Made by a program: the position numbers and the translations under genes. 11,243 nucleotides of DNA, from contig JAUXGM010000075.1 in NCBI GenBank assembly GCA_030622125.1, forward strand, positions 1 to 11,243, written 5' to 3'. The stretch comes from a bacterium. Its GTDB lineage: Bacteria; AUK180. Positions 1,632 through 11,243 of the stretch are shown here, in pieces. How positions within the stretch are numbered: the stretch's first letter is position 1; each line of letters starts with the position of its first letter. The notes beneath the pieces were generated by a model, which made no database searches, was not told the DNA's origin, and saw only the letters and a program-made list of their open reading frames with translations.

Positions 1632-1659
1632 TTGATTTTTTTTGAAAATAAGTTATAAT
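1632..1659 (+). promoter_or_regulatory. Promoter of the envelope operon
   Basis: TTGATT (1632-1637), a 16-bp spacer and TATAAT (1654-1659), 8 nt before the ATG at 1668. A start point near 1666 predicts a nearly leaderless mRNA, in keeping with the absence of a Shine-Dalgarno sequence. The region is very AT-rich, so chance matches are possible, but the boxes agree exactly with those of the divergent promoter. Confidence 0.6.
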
Positions 1660-1667
1660 TATAAATT

Positions 1668-2636
1668 ATGAAAAAGATAGTTTTAAGGGTAATTGCTTTT
1701 TTTATTTTATTATGGATCTTTATATATTGTGGATACACATTTTTGGGTCTATTCATCGTAAAAAAAGAGGTTACCGTTCCATCTATTGTTGGGGAAGAAA
1801 TGAAGATGGCAAAAAGAACCTTACGGAATAGCCGTTTGAGATTCACGGTCGAATATTCAAAGAGAAATGATTATCCTAATAATTTTGTATTTTACCAGTA
1901 TCCCAAGGGAGGTAACAAAGTCCTTATTGGTTTTACGATAAAACTTTATATTGCTGAAAATAGCAATAAAAGTGTGGTGCCTGATCTATTGGGTTTGGAC
2001 AAAGCCAATGCGAAGATAATTCTTAAAAAAATAAGGCTTAATTTAGGCAAAGTGATATATAGGAAAAGTAAGGTTAATTTAAAAGATCAAATAATATATC
2101 AAAAACCCGAGCCCGGGGAAAATGTTGATTATAGTAGTAATGTAGATATTATAATAAATGATGGAATGTTGCAAAGAAACTTAATCGTTCCTTATTTTTT
2201 AAGGAATGATTATCAATATGTTAAAAGGTTGTGTAATGAATTGGGACTTATTGAAGCAACTCCAAAAGATGAAATAGGGGAGATAGTTTACCAGAACTTA
2301 ATGCCGGGAAATATTGTCAAATATAGGAGTAAGATAAATTTTGAGGTGGCATCAGAGACCGTGAAAACAGCCGATAAAAGCATTATTAAAAATGACATTA
2401 ACCGAATTTCGCCAAAATCCGACCATCAATTTTTCAATATTGATTATACATTACCGAATTTTTTTAGTAAAAAGAAGTTAAGGGTAATTTTAAAAAGTAG
2501 TAAAGGCAAGCAGATATTAGTTAATAAAAAGGTAAAAGGAGGATATCGTCTAAGCAAACTAATAAAATATAGTGAGAAAACGAATATTATCATCTATTTA
2601 GATGGAAAACAAATAAAAAAATGGGAATTAGAATAA
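1668..2636 (+). CDS. Membrane-anchored stand-alone PASTA-domain protein
   Basis: 322 residues: a short cytoplasmic start, one membrane helix (about 5-31), then three extracytoplasmic PASTA domains (about 35-96, 102-165, 171-228). Each opens with a VP-type motif (VTVPSIVG, VVPDLLGL, IVPYF); the second has the typical QKPEPGENV turn and the third QNLMPGNIV. PASTA domains bind peptidoglycan fragments or help position cell-wall enzymes, and usually sit at the end of Ser/Thr kinases or PBPs; here neither is fused. The tail (about 254-322, with LRVILKSSKGKQ and IIIYLDGKQIKKWELE) resembles, from memory, the beta-rich domain that follows PASTA repeats in some kinases and stand-alone PASTA proteins. 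It is first in the operon and overlaps the PBP gene by 16 nt, which suggests the two proteins act together. PASTA call confident; role inferred. Confidence 0.87.
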   Translation: MKKIVLRVIAFFILLWIFIYCGYTFLGLFIVKKEVTVPSIVGEEMKMAKRTLRNSRLRFTVEYSKRNDYPNNFVFYQYPKGGNKVLIGFTIKLYIAENSNKSVVPDLLGLDKANAKIILKKIRLNLGKVIYRKSKVNLKDQIIYQKPEPGENVDYSSNVDIIINDGMLQRNLIVPYFLRNDYQYVKRLCNELGLIEATPKDEIGEIVYQNLMPGNIVKYRSKINFEVASETVKTADKSIIKNDINRISPKSDHQFFNIDYTLPNFFSKKKLRVILKSSKGKQILVNKKVKGGYRLSKLIKYSEKTNIIIYLDGKQIKKWELE

Positions 2637-4705
2637 AGAATAAATGGCAAAAACTCATTATTCTATTAGCATTACCAATAATATTGGGAGCAATAGGAGC
2701 ACTTATATTAATGATGGTGGTTGGCATTATGAGATTTCCGATTGACCTTTCCCGGTACCAACCATACGAGCTAACAAAGGTTTATGATATAAATGGTGAG
2801 CTTATCTCTAAACTTTCAGCTGAGAAGCGTGAATTGATCTCACTTGATAAGTTACCGGAATATCTTCCGAATGCAACACTTGCAATCGAAGATGCAGGTT
2901 TTTATTCCCATAAAGGCATAAGATTAAAAGCGATTGTCAGGGCGTTCGTTCAAAATGTTAAAACCCGTTCCCTTTCGCAAGGGGGCTCTACGATTTCTCA
3001 ACAACTTGCAAAGAATATGACAAATCGTGCTGAGAAGAAGATCATAAGAAAAATAAAAGAGGCACTCTTTACAATTAAGATAGAAAAAACATATACCAAA
3101 AATCAGATATTAGAACTTTATCTTAACCAGATCAATTATGGTTATGGAAATTACGGCGTTGCCTTAGCCGCTAAGGCATATTTTGGAAAAACACCGGAAG
3201 AACTTACACTTGCAGAGTCAGCACTACTTTCGGGTATTCCGCAACGTCCTAATTACTATTACCCTCCAAAACATCTTGATTTGGCACTGAAAAGACAGAG
3301 AGTCGTTTTAAAGGAAATGCTTAAATATAACTTTATTACCAAAGAAGAATATGATAATGCAAAAAAAGAGAAAATAATAATAAAACAAATAGATAAAAAA
3401 GAAAGATTCGCACCGTATTTTATTGATTATTTAATTAAACAGCTTGTAAAAAAATACGGATATGAAACAACATTTAACGGTGGACTAAAGGTTTATACAA
3501 CTATTAGAAAAAATGTGCAAGAGAGCCTTGAAAAAACAATGAGTTCATCAAAATATCAGGGCGGTATGGTAGTGGTTGATCCCAAGACAGGCGGCATTCT
3601 TGGTATGGTCGGCGGAAGGAACTACAAAGAAAACAAATTTAATAGAACTACTCAGGCAAGGAGACAATGCGGTTCTGCGTTTAAGGTTTTTCTCTACACG
3701 ACATACATCAAATACCGTATTGGAACATTAGCAGACCTCTGGTATGATACACCGATCCATTTCCCACAACTTGAAGGTGCTAAAAGGGAAAGGAAAGAGA
3801 AAAAAGATAAAGATAAAGATAAAAAAGATAAAGATAAGGAAAAGTCGGATGAAGAAGAAGAATATGACAGCGGAGCCATCTATAAATTAATAGGCTGGGT
3901 TCCAAGTAATTATTCGGGATTTCGTGGTCCGTCAATCGTATATGACGGGATCATAAGATCAATAAATATTATAGCGATCAAGGTGCTTCTTGCAACAGGG
4001 ATAAAAGAGGTTATTGAAACAGCACATAAAATGGGTATAAAATCATATTTAAAACCCATTGTGTCATTACCATTGGGAGCAAATGAAGTTTCTCCGCTTG
4101 AAATGGCAACCGCATTTTCGCCACTTGCAAATGGCGGTTACAGAGTAGAATCATATTCAATTGTCAAGGTTGAAGATCAGATGGGAAGAGTTCTTGAAAG
4201 AAATTTTCCTATCAAAACAAAGGTATTGGATGAACAGACCGTTTATGTAATGGATTGGGTATTGAAAAAAGTTGTGGCACATGGAACAGGGATGAGAGCA
4301 AGAATAAAAGGTTATCCTATCGCCGGTAAAACGGGTACTACAAATAATTTTACAGATGCCTGGTTCCTTGGTTTTACTCCGAATTATGTCGGTGCTGTTT
4401 TTTTAGGAAATGATGATCCCTCCGTATCATTGGGTTACAACAAAACAGGTGGTGCTATTGCAGCTCCTTTGTGGAGAAAGGCAATGAAACCGATATTAAC
4501 CAGGGAAGTTCCGATCGATTTTAAAATGCCGACAGATATTAAATTTTTGAACATTGACAGAGCAGCAGGAACACTTACCACTTCTCAAACCCAAAAAGTT
4601 ATCAAACTTCCCTTTGTAGAGGGAACGGAAATAGCAATTAAGAAAAAAGAAAAAAGAGAAGATATCCTATGGAATAATCTGAAAGGAATACAATGGATAA
4701 AATAA
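2621..4705 (+). CDS. Bifunctional class A penicillin-binding protein (PBP1A type)
   Basis: A 694-residue inner-membrane enzyme that polymerises lipid II and cross-links the glycan strands. It has one N-terminal membrane helix (about 11-37). The GT51 glycosyltransferase domain (about 60-240) contains IEDAGFYSHKG with the catalytic Glu90, GGSTISQQLAKN (121-132) and ILELYLNQINYG. The transpeptidase domain (about 310-630) has all three motifs: SAFK (Ser352, Lys355), SIN (447-449) and KTGT (570-573). So it should be active in both halves. Two oddities: a highly charged Lys/Asp/Glu insertion (about 387-416) between the first two motifs, and Cys350 where RQPGS is usual before the nucleophile. The start lies inside the end of the PASTA gene and lacks a clear Shine-Dalgarno sequence, so translation is probably coupled. 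It overlaps the next gene by 13 nt. Confidence 0.95.
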   Translation: MGIRIKNKWQKLIILLALPIILGAIGALILMMVVGIMRFPIDLSRYQPYELTKVYDINGELISKLSAEKRELISLDKLPEYLPNATLAIEDAGFYSHKGIRLKAIVRAFVQNVKTRSLSQGGSTISQQLAKNMTNRAEKKIIRKIKEALFTIKIEKTYTKNQILELYLNQINYGYGNYGVALAAKAYFGKTPEELTLAESALLSGIPQRPNYYYPPKHLDLALKRQRVVLKEMLKYNFITKEEYDNAKKEKIIIKQIDKKERFAPYFIDYLIKQLVKKYGYETTFNGGLKVYTTIRKNVQESLEKTMSSSKYQGGMVVVDPKTGGILGMVGGRNYKENKFNRTTQARRQCGSAFKVFLYTTYIKYRIGTLADLWYDTPIHFPQLEGAKRERKEKKDKDKDKKDKDKEKSDEEEEYDSGAIYKLIGWVPSNYSGFRGPSIVYDGIIRSINIIAIKVLLATGIKEVIETAHKMGIKSYLKPIVSLPLGANEVSPLEMATAFSPLANGGYRVESYSIVKVEDQMGRVLERNFPIKTKVLDEQTVYVMDWVLKKVVAHGTGMRARIKGYPIAGKTGTTNNFTDAWFLGFTPNYVGAVFLGNDDPSVSLGYNKTGGAIAAPLWRKAMKPILTREVPIDFKMPTDIKFLNIDRAAGTLTTSQTQKVIKLPFVEGTEIAIKKKEKREDILWNNLKGIQWIK
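3803..3835 (+). repeat. Hexanucleotide repeat inside the PBP gene
   Basis: Five copies of AAAGAT (from 3803, 3809, 3815, 3824 and 3830), with one extra AAA between the third and fourth. They encode Lys-Asp pairs. Because the unit is two codons long, gain or loss of copies would change the length of the charged loop without breaking the reading frame. Confidence 0.8.
4682..4687 (+). promoter_or_regulatory. Ribosome binding site of the TPR gene
   Basis: AAAGGA, 5 nt before the ATG at 4693, still inside the end of the PBP gene. It supports this start and the 13-nt overlap. Confidence 0.65.
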
Positions 4706-6342
4706 AATATGCCTTAATACTCATTTTGTTTTCCGTGATGATCTTCGGATACTCTATAAATGAAGGAGAGGAATTTATAAGAGATAAAAAATATGATGCT
4801 GCATTTAACTATTTTACCGATTACTTCTCTAATTATGATAAAATTAAAGAAAAGAATTTGAAAAGTAGAGATCTAATAACCTTTTATCTTGCATTATCGC
4901 TTTATAAGATGGAAAGATATGAGGACGCTTATTCCTTACTTTCTGAAATAATGGAAGATAACAAAAACAAAATAGGTTACAATTTATTGATGGGACTTCT
5001 TATTATAAAATTGGGGGAAGAGGACCAGGGAATGAAATATTTAAAACAGGCATCACTTTTAGAGGGAATAAAATTAAAAAATAGTTTAGATATTATAGAT
5101 GGTAAATATAAATTGAAAAGAAGAACAAGATTTATCATACGGAATATTAATAGAATTGATCCCGAAGGGGTAATCACTTATGATTATTATCATAATCTTT
5201 TATTCAATTATTTCAAAAGGATAGGTAAACTTACATCTCTTGGTGTCGAATATGAAAAGCTCATACTAAAAACAATGTCAGACACTAAAAATGAGGAAGA
5301 ACTCTATAAAAAAAACAAGGACTTATTTAAGGAACTTGCAAATTGTTATGTTAAAGCTAAATACTATGATTCATTAAGTTTCGTTTTAGATGTTTATTTG
5401 AAAAATTACAAGAGTTTTGCCAGTAAAGCAGAAGTATTAAATTATATTATTTTTTCTGCAAGTGTAAATCTTAAAGCTGGAAATTATATTGAATGTCAAA
5501 AAAAGTTACTGAGAATTACAAATAAGGAACTGAAGATTCTTTCTAAATCCGATCTAATTGAATATTATAGAATTTCAATGGAACTTTACTATGTTTTGAA
5601 TATCTCTGAAAAATTAGGCGACCTTTTGGATGAATTTTTAAAAAGTAAGATAAAGAAAGTGCCGATAGATGATATAAAGAATTTCACCGATTATGCAATA
5701 AGTATCAATGATCTTGATGTTGCATATAAATTGATCAAATTATTTATGAAAGAGTCTCCAAATGATTTTAGAGGTTATCTTCTTCTCGCTAATTATTATT
5801 TGAAAAAAGGTAATTATCGATCGGCAATGACCTTATTACAAGAGATCAAAAATACGCCTTCCGATAATTATCTTGCTCATAGTGAATATGGGAAATTTAT
5901 ATTTAATGTTGCTTTAAGTAAATACCTTAATAACGAGGATTACAAAAAAGAGCTTGATGAAGCAATTGTTGAGGAAGAACTTGCTCTTGAATTTATGCCT
6001 GAAGATTTTTCCGGCAGATTTGATATATATAAGATATTAGGAAAGGTTTATTACTTAAAAGCGTTATCAATTGGTCAGATCGGGGAGATGATCGATATAG
6101 AAAGTAAACTTGTTAAACGAGATATTTATATGAATAAATCAAAAACTTATCTTAAAAAGAGCAGGAAATATTTAAAGAGAGATGTTGAAATATTAGAGTA
6201 TAAAGGCTGGACGAATATTTTCTTGAGACATTATGATAGCGCCTTTGAGGATTTTGTAAATATACTTAAAATAGATCCGTTCTCAAATAATTCTAAACTT
6301 ATGTTAAAATATATAAAAAGTGCGAAAAGGAGTGAAAGGTGA
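4693..6342 (+). CDS. Secreted TPR-repeat protein of unknown function
   Basis: 549 residues with an N-terminal hydrophobic segment (about 5-19) that looks like a Sec signal peptide, so the protein is probably exported. The rest is almost entirely alpha-helical, with degenerate TPR-like units. The clearest are near residues 62-95 (FYLALSLYKMERYEDAYSLL), 359-392 (GYLLLANYYLKKGNYRSAMT) and 498-531 (YKGWTNIFLRHYDSAFEDF). The middle part (about 130-340) is Lys-rich and its repeats are too worn to assign. TPR proteins are scaffolds; in an envelope operon such a protein could hold a PBP or glycan assembly complex, but nothing specific can be shown. A good Shine-Dalgarno sequence precedes the start, and the stop overlaps the next start codon (GTGA). 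I do not recognise a named family. Confidence 0.85.
   Translation: MDKIKYALILILFSVMIFGYSINEGEEFIRDKKYDAAFNYFTDYFSNYDKIKEKNLKSRDLITFYLALSLYKMERYEDAYSLLSEIMEDNKNKIGYNLLMGLLIIKLGEEDQGMKYLKQASLLEGIKLKNSLDIIDGKYKLKRRTRFIIRNINRIDPEGVITYDYYHNLLFNYFKRIGKLTSLGVEYEKLILKTMSDTKNEEELYKKNKDLFKELANCYVKAKYYDSLSFVLDVYLKNYKSFASKAEVLNYIIFSASVNLKAGNYIECQKKLLRITNKELKILSKSDLIEYYRISMELYYVLNISEKLGDLLDEFLKSKIKKVPIDDIKNFTDYAISINDLDVAYKLIKLFMKESPNDFRGYLLLANYYLKKGNYRSAMTLLQEIKNTPSDNYLAHSEYGKFIFNVALSKYLNNEDYKKELDEAIVEEELALEFMPEDFSGRFDIYKILGKVYYLKALSIGQIGEMIDIESKLVKRDIYMNKSKTYLKKSRKYLKRDVEILEYKGWTNIFLRHYDSAFEDFVNILKIDPFSNNSKLMLKYIKSAKRSER
6326..6332 (+). promoter_or_regulatory. Ribosome binding site of the lipoprotein gene
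   Basis: AAAGGAG, 6 nt before a GTG at 6339. It decides in favour of the GTG start, which overlaps the TGA of the TPR gene and gives a complete lipoprotein signal peptide. Confidence 0.75.
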
Positions 6343-7271
6343 AAAAATATTTTTTATTATTAATCTTGTTACTGATATTTTCAGGATGTTCTTTCTTAAA
6401 CATTAAAAATAAAGATGAGATAAGAGTATTAAAAGAAGCATTGATTAATCCGAAAAATCTTAATTTGAGCTATGAGGAATCTGGAAAACTCATAGATATT
6501 AGAGATATTGGAATTACCAATGAAGGTTACTTCATAATTGAAGGAAGGGAAAAAAAAGCATTAAATATTTATGATGGATTAGGAAATTTTTTGAGGACAA
6601 TAACCGATTATTCCGATGGTTCGGGTTTATGTAAAATTCAATTTCCTTCTTCTATAGCTTGTTATGAAAATAACAATATAATCTATTTACTCGATTCAAT
6701 GGGGAACAAGATTTTAATATATAATTTAAATGGTATTTACCTGGGAATTTTTTATGATTTTTCAGATTCGGAAGAGGATATGCCTTATTATCCTGTTTTA
6801 ATTCGAAAGAATAAAATGACAAATTATCTTATTGTAGTAGATACATATAATCATAGATTGATTGAGATAAATGAAAGTAAAACCGTTGTATTGGAGATCA
6901 AAGACGGTGGAAGTAACGATGGCAAGTTAGAATTTCCACAATCGGTTACAACCGATCAAGCGGGGAATTATTATGTTGCCGATGGTGCTGTTATTAAGGT
7001 TTATTCTGCAAGAGGTGGGTATCTTTTCAAAATTAAAAAAAAGATGATGGGAAATGTTACCGATCTTGTTATATGGAACTCAAAATACCTTGTTGCTGCC
7101 GACTCGGAGAATAAAAAGGTATTATTTTTCTCAAAATCGGGAGAGTATCTTACTTCTTTTGATTCGCCGCTGCCCGGAATAAAATTTGAGAATCCATACC
7201 GTTTATATGTTGATAATTCAGAACGATTATACATAGTAGATAATGAACTTGGGGAGATTTTTTATTATTAA
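6339..7271 (+). CDS. NHL-type beta-propeller lipoprotein
   Basis: 310 residues. The signal peptide MKKYFLLLILLLIFSGC ends in a lipobox (FSGC), so Cys17 should be lipid-modified and the mature protein tethered to a membrane. The body is a series of roughly six beta-rich blades of about 40-45 residues (near 51-90, 98-140, 150-188, 196-228, 238-275, 281-310). They show typical NHL/6-bladed propeller phrases such as FPSSIA, VVDTYNHRLIEI, FPQSVTTDQAGNYYVAD and YRLYVDNSERLYIVDN. Such propellers bind proteins, peptides or sugars; a catalytic role is not evident. It starts with GTG in a 4-nt overlap with the TPR gene, and only 3 nt separate its stop from the glycosyltransferase. The fold call is good; its partner and function are unknown. 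As a lipid-anchored neighbour of an exported TPR protein, it may form a complex with it. Confidence 0.82.
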   Translation: MKKYFLLLILLLIFSGCSFLNIKNKDEIRVLKEALINPKNLNLSYEESGKLIDIRDIGITNEGYFIIEGREKKALNIYDGLGNFLRTITDYSDGSGLCKIQFPSSIACYENNNIIYLLDSMGNKILIYNLNGIYLGIFYDFSDSEEDMPYYPVLIRKNKMTNYLIVVDTYNHRLIEINESKTVVLEIKDGGSNDGKLEFPQSVTTDQAGNYYVADGAVIKVYSARGGYLFKIKKKMMGNVTDLVIWNSKYLVAADSENKKVLFFSKSGEYLTSFDSPLPGIKFENPYRLYVDNSERLYIVDNELGEIFYY

Positions 7272-7274
7272 AGT

Positions 7275-8408
7275 ATGAAAAAAATATGTCATATCATTAC
7301 TCAATTGGAATTAGGTGGTGCTCAGATAAATACATTAAAAACGCTCAAACATTTCTCAGACCGTGGAGATGACCTCATCTTGATTACAAATCAAGCCGGT
7401 ATATTAAACGGTAAGGCAAACAAATTACTTAATGTAAAAAAGTATTTTATAAAGCCACTTGTTAGAGAAATAAATCCATTAAAAGACATTAGAGCATTAA
7501 AAATGTTGACGAGTATATTAAAAAAGGAACGTCCGGATATTGTTCATACCCATTCCTCAAAAGCAGGAATTTTAGGAAGAAAAGCAGCTAAAAAGGCAAA
7601 GATAGGTTGTATAATACATACGGTTCACGGATATGGTTTCAATTATTTTAAGAATAAACTTATTAGAGGATTTGCTATTTTCACCGAACGGAACGCAGCA
7701 AGGATTACCGATAAATTGATATTTGTTTCAAGGGACGATATGAAGATTGCCAAAGAATTAAAACTGGGAAGGAATGAGAAATATCTACTTATTAGAAGTG
7801 GCGTAGATTTTAATCTCTTTCAAGATATTGGGCACAGAAAATCTACGGTAAGAAAAAATCTGAATCTTCCTTTAAACAGAAAAATCATTATAAATGTTGC
7901 ACCTTTTAAAAAACAGAAAAACATACCTTTATTTCTTGATATTATAAAAGAATTGCGGAAGGATTTTGAGGATATTCTCGGTATTGTTATAGGCGATGGC
8001 AATTTAAGGTCCAAATATGAAACATACATTAAAAGTAATCATTTGGTTGAAAATATATTGCTTTTGGGCTTTAAGGAAAACCCCAGGGATTTTGTTTATG
8101 CTTCCGACATTTTTCTTTCAACCTCACTGTGGGAAGGGTTACCAAGAAGCGTCCTTGAATCTTTGCTATTGGGTATTCCTGTGATTGCTCCGAACATCGG
8201 TGGTATCAATGAGGTAGTTATAGATGGTAAAAATGGGTTCTTATATGAAACAAAAAACGCAGCCGGTGCAATCAACGAATTAAAGAAACTACTAAATAAT
8301 GAAGACTATTACAGAAAACTTTCAAAAAATGCAAAGAAAAGTATTAGTTCTGAATTTTCACTGGAAACAATGCTAAATAATCTGGAAAATCTCTATGATA
8401 ATTGTTAG
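7275..8408 (+). CDS. GT4-family glycosyltransferase (GT-B fold)
   Basis: 377 residues, the usual size for the family, with no membrane segment; probably works at the cytoplasmic face of the inner membrane. The N-terminal half has the acceptor-side glycine motif (LELGGAQ, 11-17), DIVHTHSSKAG and the HTVHGY segment. The C-terminal half has the nucleotide-sugar site with the E-x7-E motif (Glu287 and Glu295 in EGLPRSVLE), followed by GIPVIAPNIGGINEVV. These are standard for retaining GT4 enzymes that move a sugar from a nucleotide donor to a lipid-linked or polysaccharide acceptor; donor and acceptor cannot be read from the sequence. It begins 3 nt after the lipoprotein stop without a clear Shine-Dalgarno at normal distance (GGGGAG is about 18 nt away), so reinitiation is likely. 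Its end overlaps the WecA-like gene by 14 nt, which fits consecutive steps on one lipid carrier. Confidence 0.9.
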   Translation: MKKICHIITQLELGGAQINTLKTLKHFSDRGDDLILITNQAGILNGKANKLLNVKKYFIKPLVREINPLKDIRALKMLTSILKKERPDIVHTHSSKAGILGRKAAKKAKIGCIIHTVHGYGFNYFKNKLIRGFAIFTERNAARITDKLIFVSRDDMKIAKELKLGRNEKYLLIRSGVDFNLFQDIGHRKSTVRKNLNLPLNRKIIINVAPFKKQKNIPLFLDIIKELRKDFEDILGIVIGDGNLRSKYETYIKSNHLVENILLLGFKENPRDFVYASDIFLSTSLWEGLPRSVLESLLLGIPVIAPNIGGINEVVIDGKNGFLYETKNAAGAINELKKLLNNEDYYRKLSKNAKKSISSEFSLETMLNNLENLYDNC

Positions 8409-9393
8409 TTTTATATCGTTTATTATTGGAGTTATATTATATTTTCCAATAAATGAGATCGCTAAAAAAAGAAAGATCGTAGACACGCCTGATGGAACTT
8501 TAAAAATTCATAAAAAAAGTGTCCCTTATCTTGGGGGGCTTATTGTTCTCGGTGCACTTTTCGGAGGCGTCTTTATTGAGATATTTCTTTTAAAATATCC
8601 CTATAATTCAATGCTCAAAGGCTTGCTTATCTCTTCATTATTTATTAGTTTTCTCGGAATAGTTGATGATATACACAAGTTACATTGGGAGACAAAACTT
8701 TTAGGTGAGATAATTCTCGGAATTATCTTGATCTCATATAATATTCAGATTGATTTTATCTTTTTTCCAAGATGGTTGAATATAATACTCACGCTACTTT
8801 GGGTCTTATTTATAACAAACGGGTACAATATAATAGATGTTTCGGATGGTGTAAGCGGATTTACATTTCTGATCTTTTTAGCTTCATCTGTGATCATTTC
8901 ATTTATTACGGGTAATCTGTTTTTACCCCTTATCATCTATCCTTTGATCGGCGGTGTTCTGGCATTTTTGGTATTCAATTTACCAAAAGCGAAGATCTTC
9001 GCGGGTGATGGCGGTTCTCTCCTTTTCGGTTTTCTCGTCGGTGTTATTACCATTCATCTCGGTTATACAAAATTTAACAGGTTTTCAATAGTTGCCCCGT
9101 ATTTCCTCAATTTTTATATAATATTCGAGGTTGCACTTGTGGTTGTTTCGCGTCTTAAACTTGGGCTATCTCCCTTTTTCGGGTCTCCGCATCATTTTCC
9201 GATCAGATTAAAGAATATCGGATTAAATGATTATAAGGTCTTATCATCAATTATTTTAATAAATCTTGTTTTTTCAACTCTCGGTATTATTTGCGTTGTT
9301 ACAAATCGTCTTTTTCCGTTATATCTTTTAATCGGAGGTATTATTGTAATGATCACAATGCTTCTTATTTTTCTTAAAGTTGGAGAAAAATGA
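8395..9393 (+). CDS. WecA/MraY-like polyprenyl-phosphate sugar-1-phosphate transferase
   Basis: A 332-residue polytopic membrane enzyme (about ten helices) of the glycosyltransferase-4/PNPT family, expected to load a HexNAc-1-phosphate from a UDP-sugar onto undecaprenyl phosphate. The family motifs occur in order: DTPDGTLKIHKKSVPYLGG (30-48), GIVDD with Asp91-Asp92, NIIDVSDG (145-152), FNLPKAKIFAGDGGS with Asp205, and the last cytoplasmic loop LGLSPFFGSPHHF with His266-His267. It resembles WecA/TagO/WbpL more than MraY, so it probably starts a surface glycan, O-antigen-like chain or teichoic-type polymer rather than lipid II. The final loop reads GSPHHF rather than the commoner DRxHxHH form. 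It overlaps the upstream glycosyltransferase by 14 nt and shares ATGA with the oxidoreductase downstream. Family assignment confident; exact sugar unknown. Confidence 0.9.
   Translation: MIIVSFISFIIGVILYFPINEIAKKRKIVDTPDGTLKIHKKSVPYLGGLIVLGALFGGVFIEIFLLKYPYNSMLKGLLISSLFISFLGIVDDIHKLHWETKLLGEIILGIILISYNIQIDFIFFPRWLNIILTLLWVLFITNGYNIIDVSDGVSGFTFLIFLASSVIISFITGNLFLPLIIYPLIGGVLAFLVFNLPKAKIFAGDGGSLLFGFLVGVITIHLGYTKFNRFSIVAPYFLNFYIIFEVALVVVSRLKLGLSPFFGSPHHFPIRLKNIGLNDYKVLSSIILINLVFSTLGIICVVTNRLFPLYLLIGGIIVMITMLLIFLKVGEK
9382..9385 (+). promoter_or_regulatory. Ribosome binding site of the FAD oxidoreductase gene
   Basis: GGAG, 4 nt before the ATG at 9390. The start codon overlaps the upstream TGA as ATGA, the classic arrangement for coupled translation. 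Confidence 0.6.
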
Positions 9394-10610
9394 AAAAAGT
9401 AATTATTCTCGGTGGTGGGTTGGCAGGTTTGAGTGCCGTTGCCCATTTAAGAAAAAGATATGATGTATTACTCCTTGAAAAAGAAGCAATTCCCGGAGGC
9501 ATATTAAAAACTACGAACATTAACGGCTATATTTTCGATCATACAGGTCATCTTATTCATAGCTTAAACAATGAAATGAAGAGCTTTATAAAGGCTATGA
9601 AATTGTCGCTTATTGAAGTAAAAAGGTCATCGGCAGTTTATATTGAAAATAAATATATACCATATCCGATCCAGTTAAATTTTAAATATTTGAATGAAAA
9701 ACAGAAGATCATTAATGATATCTTAAAAAGTCAACAGGAAATTGTAATTTCAACCGATACGAATTTTTATAAATGGGTTGAAAATTACTTTGGAAAAACA
9801 TTAAGCGATCTTTTCTTTATTCCCTACAATGAAAAACTTTTAAGGATTGATCTTTCAAATGTCAGTTCGGACTGGTTTTCGAGATACCTCCCGATCCCGG
9901 ATAAAATAGAAATGATCCGATCATTAAAAAATGGGATCAATGATGCCGGTTACAATGCTACATTTTGCTATCCTCAAAGTGGAGGAATTCAGGTTATAAC
10001 AGACAAAATGAGTGAACTTTTCAAAAAAAATATTAGGACGAACATAAATATTGAAGGAATTGATATTGAGAATAGGATCATTAAAACAAGGGCTGAAAAA
10101 TATAATTATGATATTCTGATTTCAACGATACCTTATCCTGAATTTCTAAAACTATCGAAAATTGAAGCCAATTATAAGATCGATTATGTCAATGTCTATG
10201 ACCTTAATGTCGGAGTAAAGAAAGCAAATTTCCCATATCATTGGGCTTATTTTTCTGGAAAAGATCTGCCGTTTTACCGAATTGGCTCCTATTCAAATAT
10301 TTCAAATGCTCTTGTGCCCAAAGAAAGGGAAAGCTTTTACATAGAAGTAAGTTTTACTGATAAAAGACCGAACAAAGAAGAAATTTTAAAAATGGTGGAA
10401 CAAGTCGGAATATTCAAAATAGAGGATATTGAGGTTGCAGAAGAAAAGATAATAAATTACGCTTATCCGATCTACAATCTTGATATAAAAAGATTAAGAA
10501 ATCATCAAAGGCAGTTTCAGGAAAATGGTGTTTTCTTTTTTGGAAGATCCGGCAGCTGGAAATATCTTTCAATGGCGGATATATTTAAAGAAAGTTACCA
10601 AATTTTTTGA
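9390..10610 (+). CDS. FAD-dependent amine-oxidase / UDP-galactopyranose-mutase-like protein
   Basis: 406 residues, no membrane segment. The N-terminus is a dinucleotide-binding fold for FAD: ILGGGLAGLSA (6-16) with the acidic residue Glu30 in LLLEKE closing the second strand, then the PGGIL segment. The middle has YIPYPIQLNF (89-98), a phrase seen in UDP-galactopyranose-mutase-like proteins. The C-terminus (about 380-406) has the second FAD-contacting strand with FFFGRSGSWKYLSMAD. Proteins of this kind, often annotated protoporphyrinogen oxidase or amine oxidase, are common in polysaccharide clusters. Here the position after a WecA-like transferase and a GT4 enzyme makes a sugar-related role more likely than haem synthesis. 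Whether it is a mutase (pyranose to furanose) or an oxidoreductase cannot be decided. It is the last gene of the operon, and its stop overlaps the next promoter. Confidence 0.82.
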   Translation: MKKVIILGGGLAGLSAVAHLRKRYDVLLLEKEAIPGGILKTTNINGYIFDHTGHLIHSLNNEMKSFIKAMKLSLIEVKRSSAVYIENKYIPYPIQLNFKYLNEKQKIINDILKSQQEIVISTDTNFYKWVENYFGKTLSDLFFIPYNEKLLRIDLSNVSSDWFSRYLPIPDKIEMIRSLKNGINDAGYNATFCYPQSGGIQVITDKMSELFKKNIRTNINIEGIDIENRIIKTRAEKYNYDILISTIPYPEFLKLSKIEANYKIDYVNVYDLNVGVKKANFPYHWAYFSGKDLPFYRIGSYSNISNALVPKERESFYIEVSFTDKRPNKEEILKMVEQVGIFKIEDIEVAEEKIINYAYPIYNLDIKRLRNHQRQFQENGVFFFGRSGSWKYLSMADIFKESYQIF

Positions 10611-10635
10611 CAAAAACTATTAAAAGTAATATAAT
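10607..10635 (+). promoter_or_regulatory. Perfect-consensus sigma70 promoter
   Basis: TTGACA (10607-10612), a 17-bp spacer and TATAAT (10630-10635): an exact match to consensus at optimal spacing. The -35 box overlaps the TGA (10608-10610) of the operon's last gene. A start near 10642 would leave about 13 nt of leader, just enough to include the ribosome binding site. It implies strong, constitutive-type expression of the secreted protein downstream. Confidence 0.85.
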
Positions 10636-10641
10636 ATGAAT

Positions 10642-10648
10642 AAAGGAG
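10642..10648 (+). promoter_or_regulatory. Strong ribosome binding site of the Fn3-like secreted protein
   Basis: AAAGGAG, 6 nt before the ATG at 10655. Together with the consensus promoter it marks this as a highly expressed gene and fixes its start. Confidence 0.8.
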
Positions 10649-10654
10649 AAGAAA

Positions 10655-11243
10655 ATGAAGAAAACATTTTTTCTGATTATAACTTTATTGCTTATCTTTA
10701 CTGCGGGAATGCCAATATATGCAAATCCGCCTAATGCTTTTGATATCATTTCACCAAAGGATTTAGTTGAACTTTCCTCTAAAACCGTAATGTTTCAATA
10801 TGAAGATAAAGGTGATCCTGATGGCGATACATTGACCTATCATATTTGGATAAGAAATTATAAAAATGAATATTACAGCGGACCTTTTGGCAATACCACA
10901 TCAAATACCTTTCAGACCGTTTTGCAGGATGACAATATGAAATACTCATGGTATGTAATAGCAGAAGATACAAGTGGAGAAACAACTACATCTACAAATA
11001 CCGGTACATTCGCCATAAACATTGTTGAGGAAACGCCGCTCCCGTTTGATCTTATTTTACCTGAGGATGGTTCACAACAAGAGACCGGTACCATTATACT
11101 TGAGTGGGAAAAAACAACCGATCCGGATCCATTGGATACGATTGCATATACGGTAAACTATTCAACGGATGGCTGGAATTCAAGAACGGCGATACCAAAC
11201 ATAAATGATACTGCTACTGCAATTTCAATATTAAAAGATAACA
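10655..11243 (+). CDS. Secreted protein with tandem Fn3-like repeats (partial, 3' end missing)
   Basis: 196 residues are visible before the window ends; the frame is still open. A clear Sec signal peptide (residues 1-23) has a likely cleavage after IYA, before NPP. What follows is at least two tandem beta-sandwich modules of about 100 residues (about 25-124 and 128 onwards). They share the pattern FDIISPKD / FDLILPED, then TVMFQYEDKGDPDGD / TIILEWEKTTDPD, then a tyrosine-containing strand. This is the usual look of fibronectin type III-like or related bacterial surface modules. The DPDGD turn is acidic and could bind calcium, which is an inference. It has its own consensus promoter and strong ribosome binding site. 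Probably a large, abundant extracellular or cell-surface protein; its end, including any anchor, repeat number or sorting signal, lies outside the window. Confidence 0.8.
   Translation, partial: MKKTFFLIITLLLIFTAGMPIYANPPNAFDIISPKDLVELSSKTVMFQYEDKGDPDGDTLTYHIWIRNYKNEYYSGPFGNTTSNTFQTVLQDDNMKYSWYVIAEDTSGETTTSTNTGTFAINIVEETPLPFDLILPEDGSQQETGTIILEWEKTTDPDPLDTIAYTVNYSTDGWNSRTAIPNINDTATAISILKDN

Follow-up and report, generated by a model that had tools for sequence, protein, structure and literature searches.

The seven genes at positions 1668 to 10610 of the DNA analysed here are best regarded as a family-specific envelope-growth operon built of two older modules, a reading to which we would attach a probability of roughly 0.6. 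The first module consists of the genes for a PASTA-repeat protein, a class A PBP, a TPR protein and an NHL lipoprotein (module 1), and the second of those for a GT4 glycosyltransferase, a PNPT-superfamily transferase and an FAD protein (module 2). Both halves are of known families; their combination is a family-level variant, of which no published description was found in the open-access literature.

Genomes compared

The stretch analysed (the window) is the entire contig C161, 11,243 bases long, from a genome of 2.08 Mb in 192 contigs belonging to the GTDB phylum AUK180, i.e. Candidatus Uvuciota, whose habitat is deep-sea and marine hydrothermal sediments (PMC11382960). Of the 60 genomes searched, only six others share the class of the window genome (G000): four in the window's family (G001-G004), which with the window genome counted in comprises five genomes in four genera, and two in a sister family (G005 and G006), for which completeness is only 72-80%. 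Gene content was queried family by family. An Rfam search of the window gave zero matches, and its first 330 positions (1-330) are an interspersed repeat with 61 matches in its own genome and none in the six class relatives.

The block as a unit

The features of the block are as follows.

1632..1659, + strand: operon promoter TTGATT-16-TATAAT, its last base 8 nt short of the PASTA start codon
1668..2636, + strand: PASTA-repeat membrane protein with an Ig-like C-terminal domain (a PASTA-kinase ectodomain without the kinase)
2621..4705, + strand: class A PBP, two catalytic domains, motifs intact
4693..6342, + strand: exported TPR protein (its sister-family counterpart is a lipoprotein)
6339..7271, + strand: NHL-type beta-propeller lipoprotein
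7275..8408, + strand: GT4 glycosyltransferase, EX7E motif (E287/E295)
8395..9393, + strand: PNPT superfamily (WecA-like) sugar-1-phosphate transferase
9390..10610, + strand: UDP-galactopyranose mutase (UGM) homologue, eukaryotic type
10607..10635, + strand: perfect consensus promoter TTGACA-17-TATAAT of the next gene, overlapping the last stop codon and marking the end of the block

The junctions between the seven ORFs are, in order, -16, -13, -4, +3, -14 and -4 nt, so that the seven same-strand genes with overlaps of 4-16 nt or a 3-nt gap described in an initial annotation of this DNA stand exactly as it gave them; domain searches likewise agree with the protein families that it named. That annotation had also proposed conservation of gene order across relatives as a check, and the identical seven genes, in identical order and on one strand, were indeed found in all five genomes of the family. 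Tight junctions are kept along the block in every one of these (four genera), and this includes the border between the two modules, where the NHL gene meets the GT4 gene; in G002 that junction is nominally -59 nt if counted from an early ATG, while an ATG lying 4 nt past the NHL stop matches the other genomes. Across the family the PBP shows 59-69% protein identity and the other six proteins 29-57%. In G002, G003 and G004, neither of the window's two flanking genes (complete or partial) has a counterpart next to the block. An order kept in this way amid changing surroundings goes beyond what chance would give.

As a control, a six-gene block around the LCP gene was found to be equally conserved in the family, again with differing flanks. 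In this family, then, gene order is held within operons and reshuffled outside them, and the seven genes follow that pattern as a single unit; since the LCP block is just as well conserved, however, conserved order is evidence of an operon-like unit and not, by itself, of shared function. To this extent the earlier proposal of one operon-like unit, joining a wall module to a lipid-linked glycan module, has been borne out across the four genera of the family.

The initial annotation had missed the promoters at both borders of the block. In G000, G001, G003 and G004 a TATAAT element, accompanied by a matching -35 element, stops 8 nt short of the PASTA ATG, while in G002 it lies 6 nt before the likely PASTA start (3925 of L067); for each of the five family genomes the operon mRNA is accordingly predicted to be nearly leaderless. 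At the other border, the perfect promoter is followed (window 10607-11243) by an AGGAG resembling a Shine-Dalgarno sequence and by an ORF for a secreted protein, FN3-like in appearance, that runs off the contig and for which a family search gave nothing above cut-off; unlike the near-leaderless operon, this next gene has a Shine-Dalgarno site.

As to the claim that the block contains no internal promoter or terminator, this holds for the gene junctions, where neither kind of site was seen, but must be qualified in that one + strand promoter-like site with 10/12 matches does occur, at 4014-4043, inside the PBP gene. At the NHL/GT4 border the window has neither a promoter-like nor a terminator-like site, and across the five family genomes no promoter-like site of at least 10/12 matches was found there; in G001 and G004 one lies about 300 nt inside the NHL gene. 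Judged from these features of the sequence, the seven genes are probably co-transcribed.

The two modules outside the family

Module 1 is present in all seven genomes of the class. In the sister family the first cluster runs PASTA, PBP, TPR lipoprotein and NHL (G005 and G006), and after the NHL gene comes an M23 peptidase gene in G006 and the start of its counterpart in G005, the contigs ending at that point; the TPR proteins of the two families correspond (hhalign 99.3% over 519 columns). In G005 only, the TPR and NHL genes are separated by a small ORF and a gene for a YhcG/DUF1016 PDDEXK nuclease (L069:5838-7565).

The GT4, PNPT and FAD genes of the sister family, on the other hand, sit on contigs other than those of the PBP cluster, the contigs of the two modules share no end overlap, and module 2 is preceded in both genomes by 460 nt or more of non-coding DNA and by its own promoter, TTGATT-17-TATAAT. 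With its halves on different contigs and under separate promoters in the sister family, the operon as a class-wide unit is rejected. The initial annotation had raised the matter of whether the PBP and glycan genes come apart in close relatives, and the outcome depends on how close these are: linkage is found throughout the family but is replaced by separate contigs and a separate promoter one family away.

Further afield, a profile of the FAD protein finds matches at E 1e-30 or better in 123 of 386 genomes, the class itself counted in. Outside the class, 16 of the 27 genomes examined have a PNPT and/or GT4 of these families beside the FAD protein, while relatives of the PBP, PASTA, TPR and NHL proteins were found near the FAD loci in none of the 27, the stretch covered being mostly 1.5 kb to either side, and at seven of the loci 12-18 kb. 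A profile of the PASTA protein gave no match at other PBP loci outside the class, although with short flanks this is a weak test. Since the modules are apart in the sister family, and module 2 occurs without the PBP outside the class, the PBP-glycan join is a family-level feature. The simplest history is that, in this family's ancestor, a glycan module that was already old became attached to the wall module; less simply, the join may be older and have been lost in the sister family.

Genes of the wall module

The PBP has GT51 and transpeptidase domains with intact catalytic motifs, and scores above the cut-off of TIGR02074 (class A PBP). Its transpeptidase domain carries a Lys/Asp/Glu-rich insertion between the SxxK and SxN motifs (window 3773-3880, about residues 385-420), the length and sequence of which vary among the relatives.

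The PASTA protein, of which one was found per class genome, has a transmembrane segment and PASTA repeats, and its match to PASTA kinases is confined to their ectodomain, domain and profile searches revealing no cytoplasmic kinase domain. Its C-terminal domain (pLDDT mostly near 90) is closest to 3py9 (S. aureus PrkC), with Z 8.9 and an rmsd of 2.2 over 70 residues, but the next-best structures reach Z 7.4, the fold is a common one, and the comparison effectively concerns residues 245-322 only, the PASTA repeats having been modelled poorly. The NHL protein (an NHL/6-bladed propeller) has a lipobox-like Cys in all seven class genomes, whereas the TPR protein has a lipobox in the sister family only and is without one in the window's family, a point that tells against the reading preferred here.

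The PNPT and GT4 enzymes

The PNPT matches PF00953, with the DD, NxxDxxDG and HH motifs intact, and scores 67.2 bits against WecA sensu stricto (TIGR02380), below the curated cut-off of 326 bits. Three further PF00953 genes occur in the genome: MraY is on C183, the gene on C49 has an aminotransferase next to it, and that on C89 shares a polysaccharide-type locus with a Bac_transf sugar transferase. The idea that the operon PNPT is the genome's MraY was rejected, as another PF00953 gene shares a contig with an ftsI-type PBP and mur genes. In the GT4 protein the catalytic motif is intact, and its profile lies near BshA and near PglA, an enzyme that works on an undecaprenyl-PP-linked sugar.

How the two modules might work together

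In the mechanism that we propose, module 1 would provide a bifunctional class A PBP together with three partners (the PASTA ectodomain, the TPR protein and the NHL lipoprotein) that probably serve it in the periplasm, sensing for it or activating it, much as the Lpo lipoproteins do in E. coli, where LpoA is an outer-membrane lipoprotein with a TPR-like N-terminal domain and an activator of PBP1A (PMC4632607). Within module 2, the PNPT would transfer a sugar-1-phosphate to undecaprenyl phosphate, so starting a lipid-linked glycan, the UGM homologue would generate a UDP-furanose, in the simplest case UDP-Galf, and the GT4 enzyme would add a sugar to the lipid-linked acceptor. We infer both the substrates of these enzymes and the partnership of the PBP. 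A single promoter before the PASTA gene would drive both modules, and with one promoter for both, wall and glycan output would rise together, each drawing on the same undecaprenyl-phosphate pool.

A competing view that deserves to be taken seriously, even if we are inclined to doubt it, is that the modules are mere neighbours: the glycan module would have landed behind the wall operon in the family ancestor and would simply be using its promoter, the two having only growth-related expression in common. It agrees with this view that the sister family has module 2 by itself, under a promoter of its own, and that elsewhere the module was seen with no PBP beside it; retention of the join in four genera, despite replacement of the flanking genes, speaks against it and for the envelope-growth operon.

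Destination of the glycan

Where the product of module 2 would end up is a separate matter. Since LpxC and Omp85 are present in all seven class genomes, an LPS-bearing outer membrane (i.e. a diderm cell plan) is likely. The glycan presumably ends on the cell surface. Domain and profile searches found no ligase, flippase or polymerase in the seven-gene operon. Proteins of the Wzy_C family (O-antigen ligase/polymerase) number nine to ten per 2-3 Mb genome in G000-G006, and may represent ligases or polymerases on offer for LPS or other glycans; their genes are spread over many contigs (e.g. L108, L115, L122), many in frames of 600-1000 aa. The acceptor may be wall, LPS or protein, all three being in play: attachment to peptidoglycan is possible, and as a destination we rate LPS or some other surface glycan no lower, if anything somewhat higher.

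The possibility that module 2 builds a secondary wall polymer on undecaprenyl phosphate, which LCP then moves onto the peptidoglycan made by the module 1 PBP, appears unlikely to us. It would make sense of the operon partnership with a PBP, and also of the distribution of LCP, with one gene in each of the five joined family genomes (outside the operon) and none in the two unjoined sister genomes; but the latter are incomplete (72-80%), and the contrast amounts to one evolutionary event. Moreover, the LCP gene belongs to an unlinked nadD-yqeK block, the operon lacks a polymerase or flippase, and in a cell with LpxC, Omp85 and so probably an outer membrane, LPS is the usual acceptor. The LCP block itself (L128:2207-11998) is a conserved six-gene block of the family that includes, besides nadD and yqeK, two proteins of about 1180 aa. 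Distinctly improbable, in our estimation, is the fullest version of the idea, in which an LPS-bearing diderm phylum would make an LCP-attached, furanose-containing wall polymer in step with a PBP, under a kinase-less PASTA sensor and from one near-leaderless mRNA.

The FAD protein as a UGM homologue

The initial annotation had called the FAD protein UGM-like, and profile comparison now places it with UGM of the eukaryotic type, over its full length: its profile matches T. cruzi UGM (4dsg) at E 6e-84, full length, and A. fumigatus UGM (AfUGM; 3ute) at E 2e-75, as against about 1e-16, and the N-terminal half only, for bacterial UGM, and 2e-16 for protoporphyrinogen oxidase. Even as a single sequence, the window protein matches 4dsg at E 7e-32. 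An FAD Rossmann motif accompanies this full-length homology to solved UGM. Equivalents of AfUGM H63, Q107, N163, W315, Y317 and R327, which we take to be UGM active-site positions, are kept (as H54, Q95, N147, W285, Y287 and R297), R297 being nearly invariant. At the position of R182, which with R327 makes up the pair of arginines for the substrate diphosphate, the alignment has Tyr/Phe/Met-type residues, with an Arg one residue earlier, and that of W167 is Leu/Phe/Tyr in the window's family, so that the exact sugar may differ. PF03275 (bacterial-type GLF) has no match in the FAD protein and none in any protein of the seven class genomes, which makes the FAD protein the best candidate for their UGM.

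That it might instead be an oxidoreductase of the protoporphyrinogen or amine oxidase type, near which Pfam and NCBIfam do put it, we consider very improbable, given that the UGM match, which spans the whole protein, scores about 220 bits above that to protoporphyrinogen oxidase, and that PNPT and GT4 accompany the FAD protein in many genomes.

Significance and comparison with known systems

The co-ordination of pathways that use undecaprenyl phosphate has been described in a review as largely unknown (PMC7831098), and if the coupling proposed here is functional, the operon would tie peptidoglycan synthesis genetically to a second such pathway. Two further points are of wider interest, namely the occurrence throughout the class of a PrkC-type PASTA ectodomain without a kinase directly before a class A PBP, and the recurrence among bacteria of a PNPT-GT4-UGM module whose mutase is of the eukaryotic type.

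Four known systems invite comparison. With the PASTA kinases PrkC, PknB and Stk1 the window protein has in common the transmembrane segment, the PASTA repeats and, less certainly, the C-terminal domain, which is nearest to that of the S. aureus PrkC ectodomain, but it has no kinase domain, and the kinase encoded on C89 of the same genome carries PEGA rather than PASTA. The PBP1A-LpoA and PBP1B-LpoB systems of E. coli (PMC4632607) share with module 1 a class A PBP, a TPR-type partner, lipoproteins and a diderm host; here, however, the putative partners are encoded together with the PBP, and a PASTA ectodomain and an NHL propeller are among them. The eukaryotic-type UGMs (4dsg, 3ute) are homologous to the FAD protein along its whole length and agree with it in the FAD motif and at most active-site positions, but differ at the R182 and W167 positions already described, the gene here lying moreover in a bacterial PNPT-GT4 module and its product having no PF03275 match. 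Finally, as with LCP-dependent wall glycopolymers (PMC7831098), a single genome here holds one LCP protein together with a PBP and a pathway for a lipid-linked glycan, but any such polymer would be putative, LCP is unlinked and the host is an LpxC-bearing diderm.
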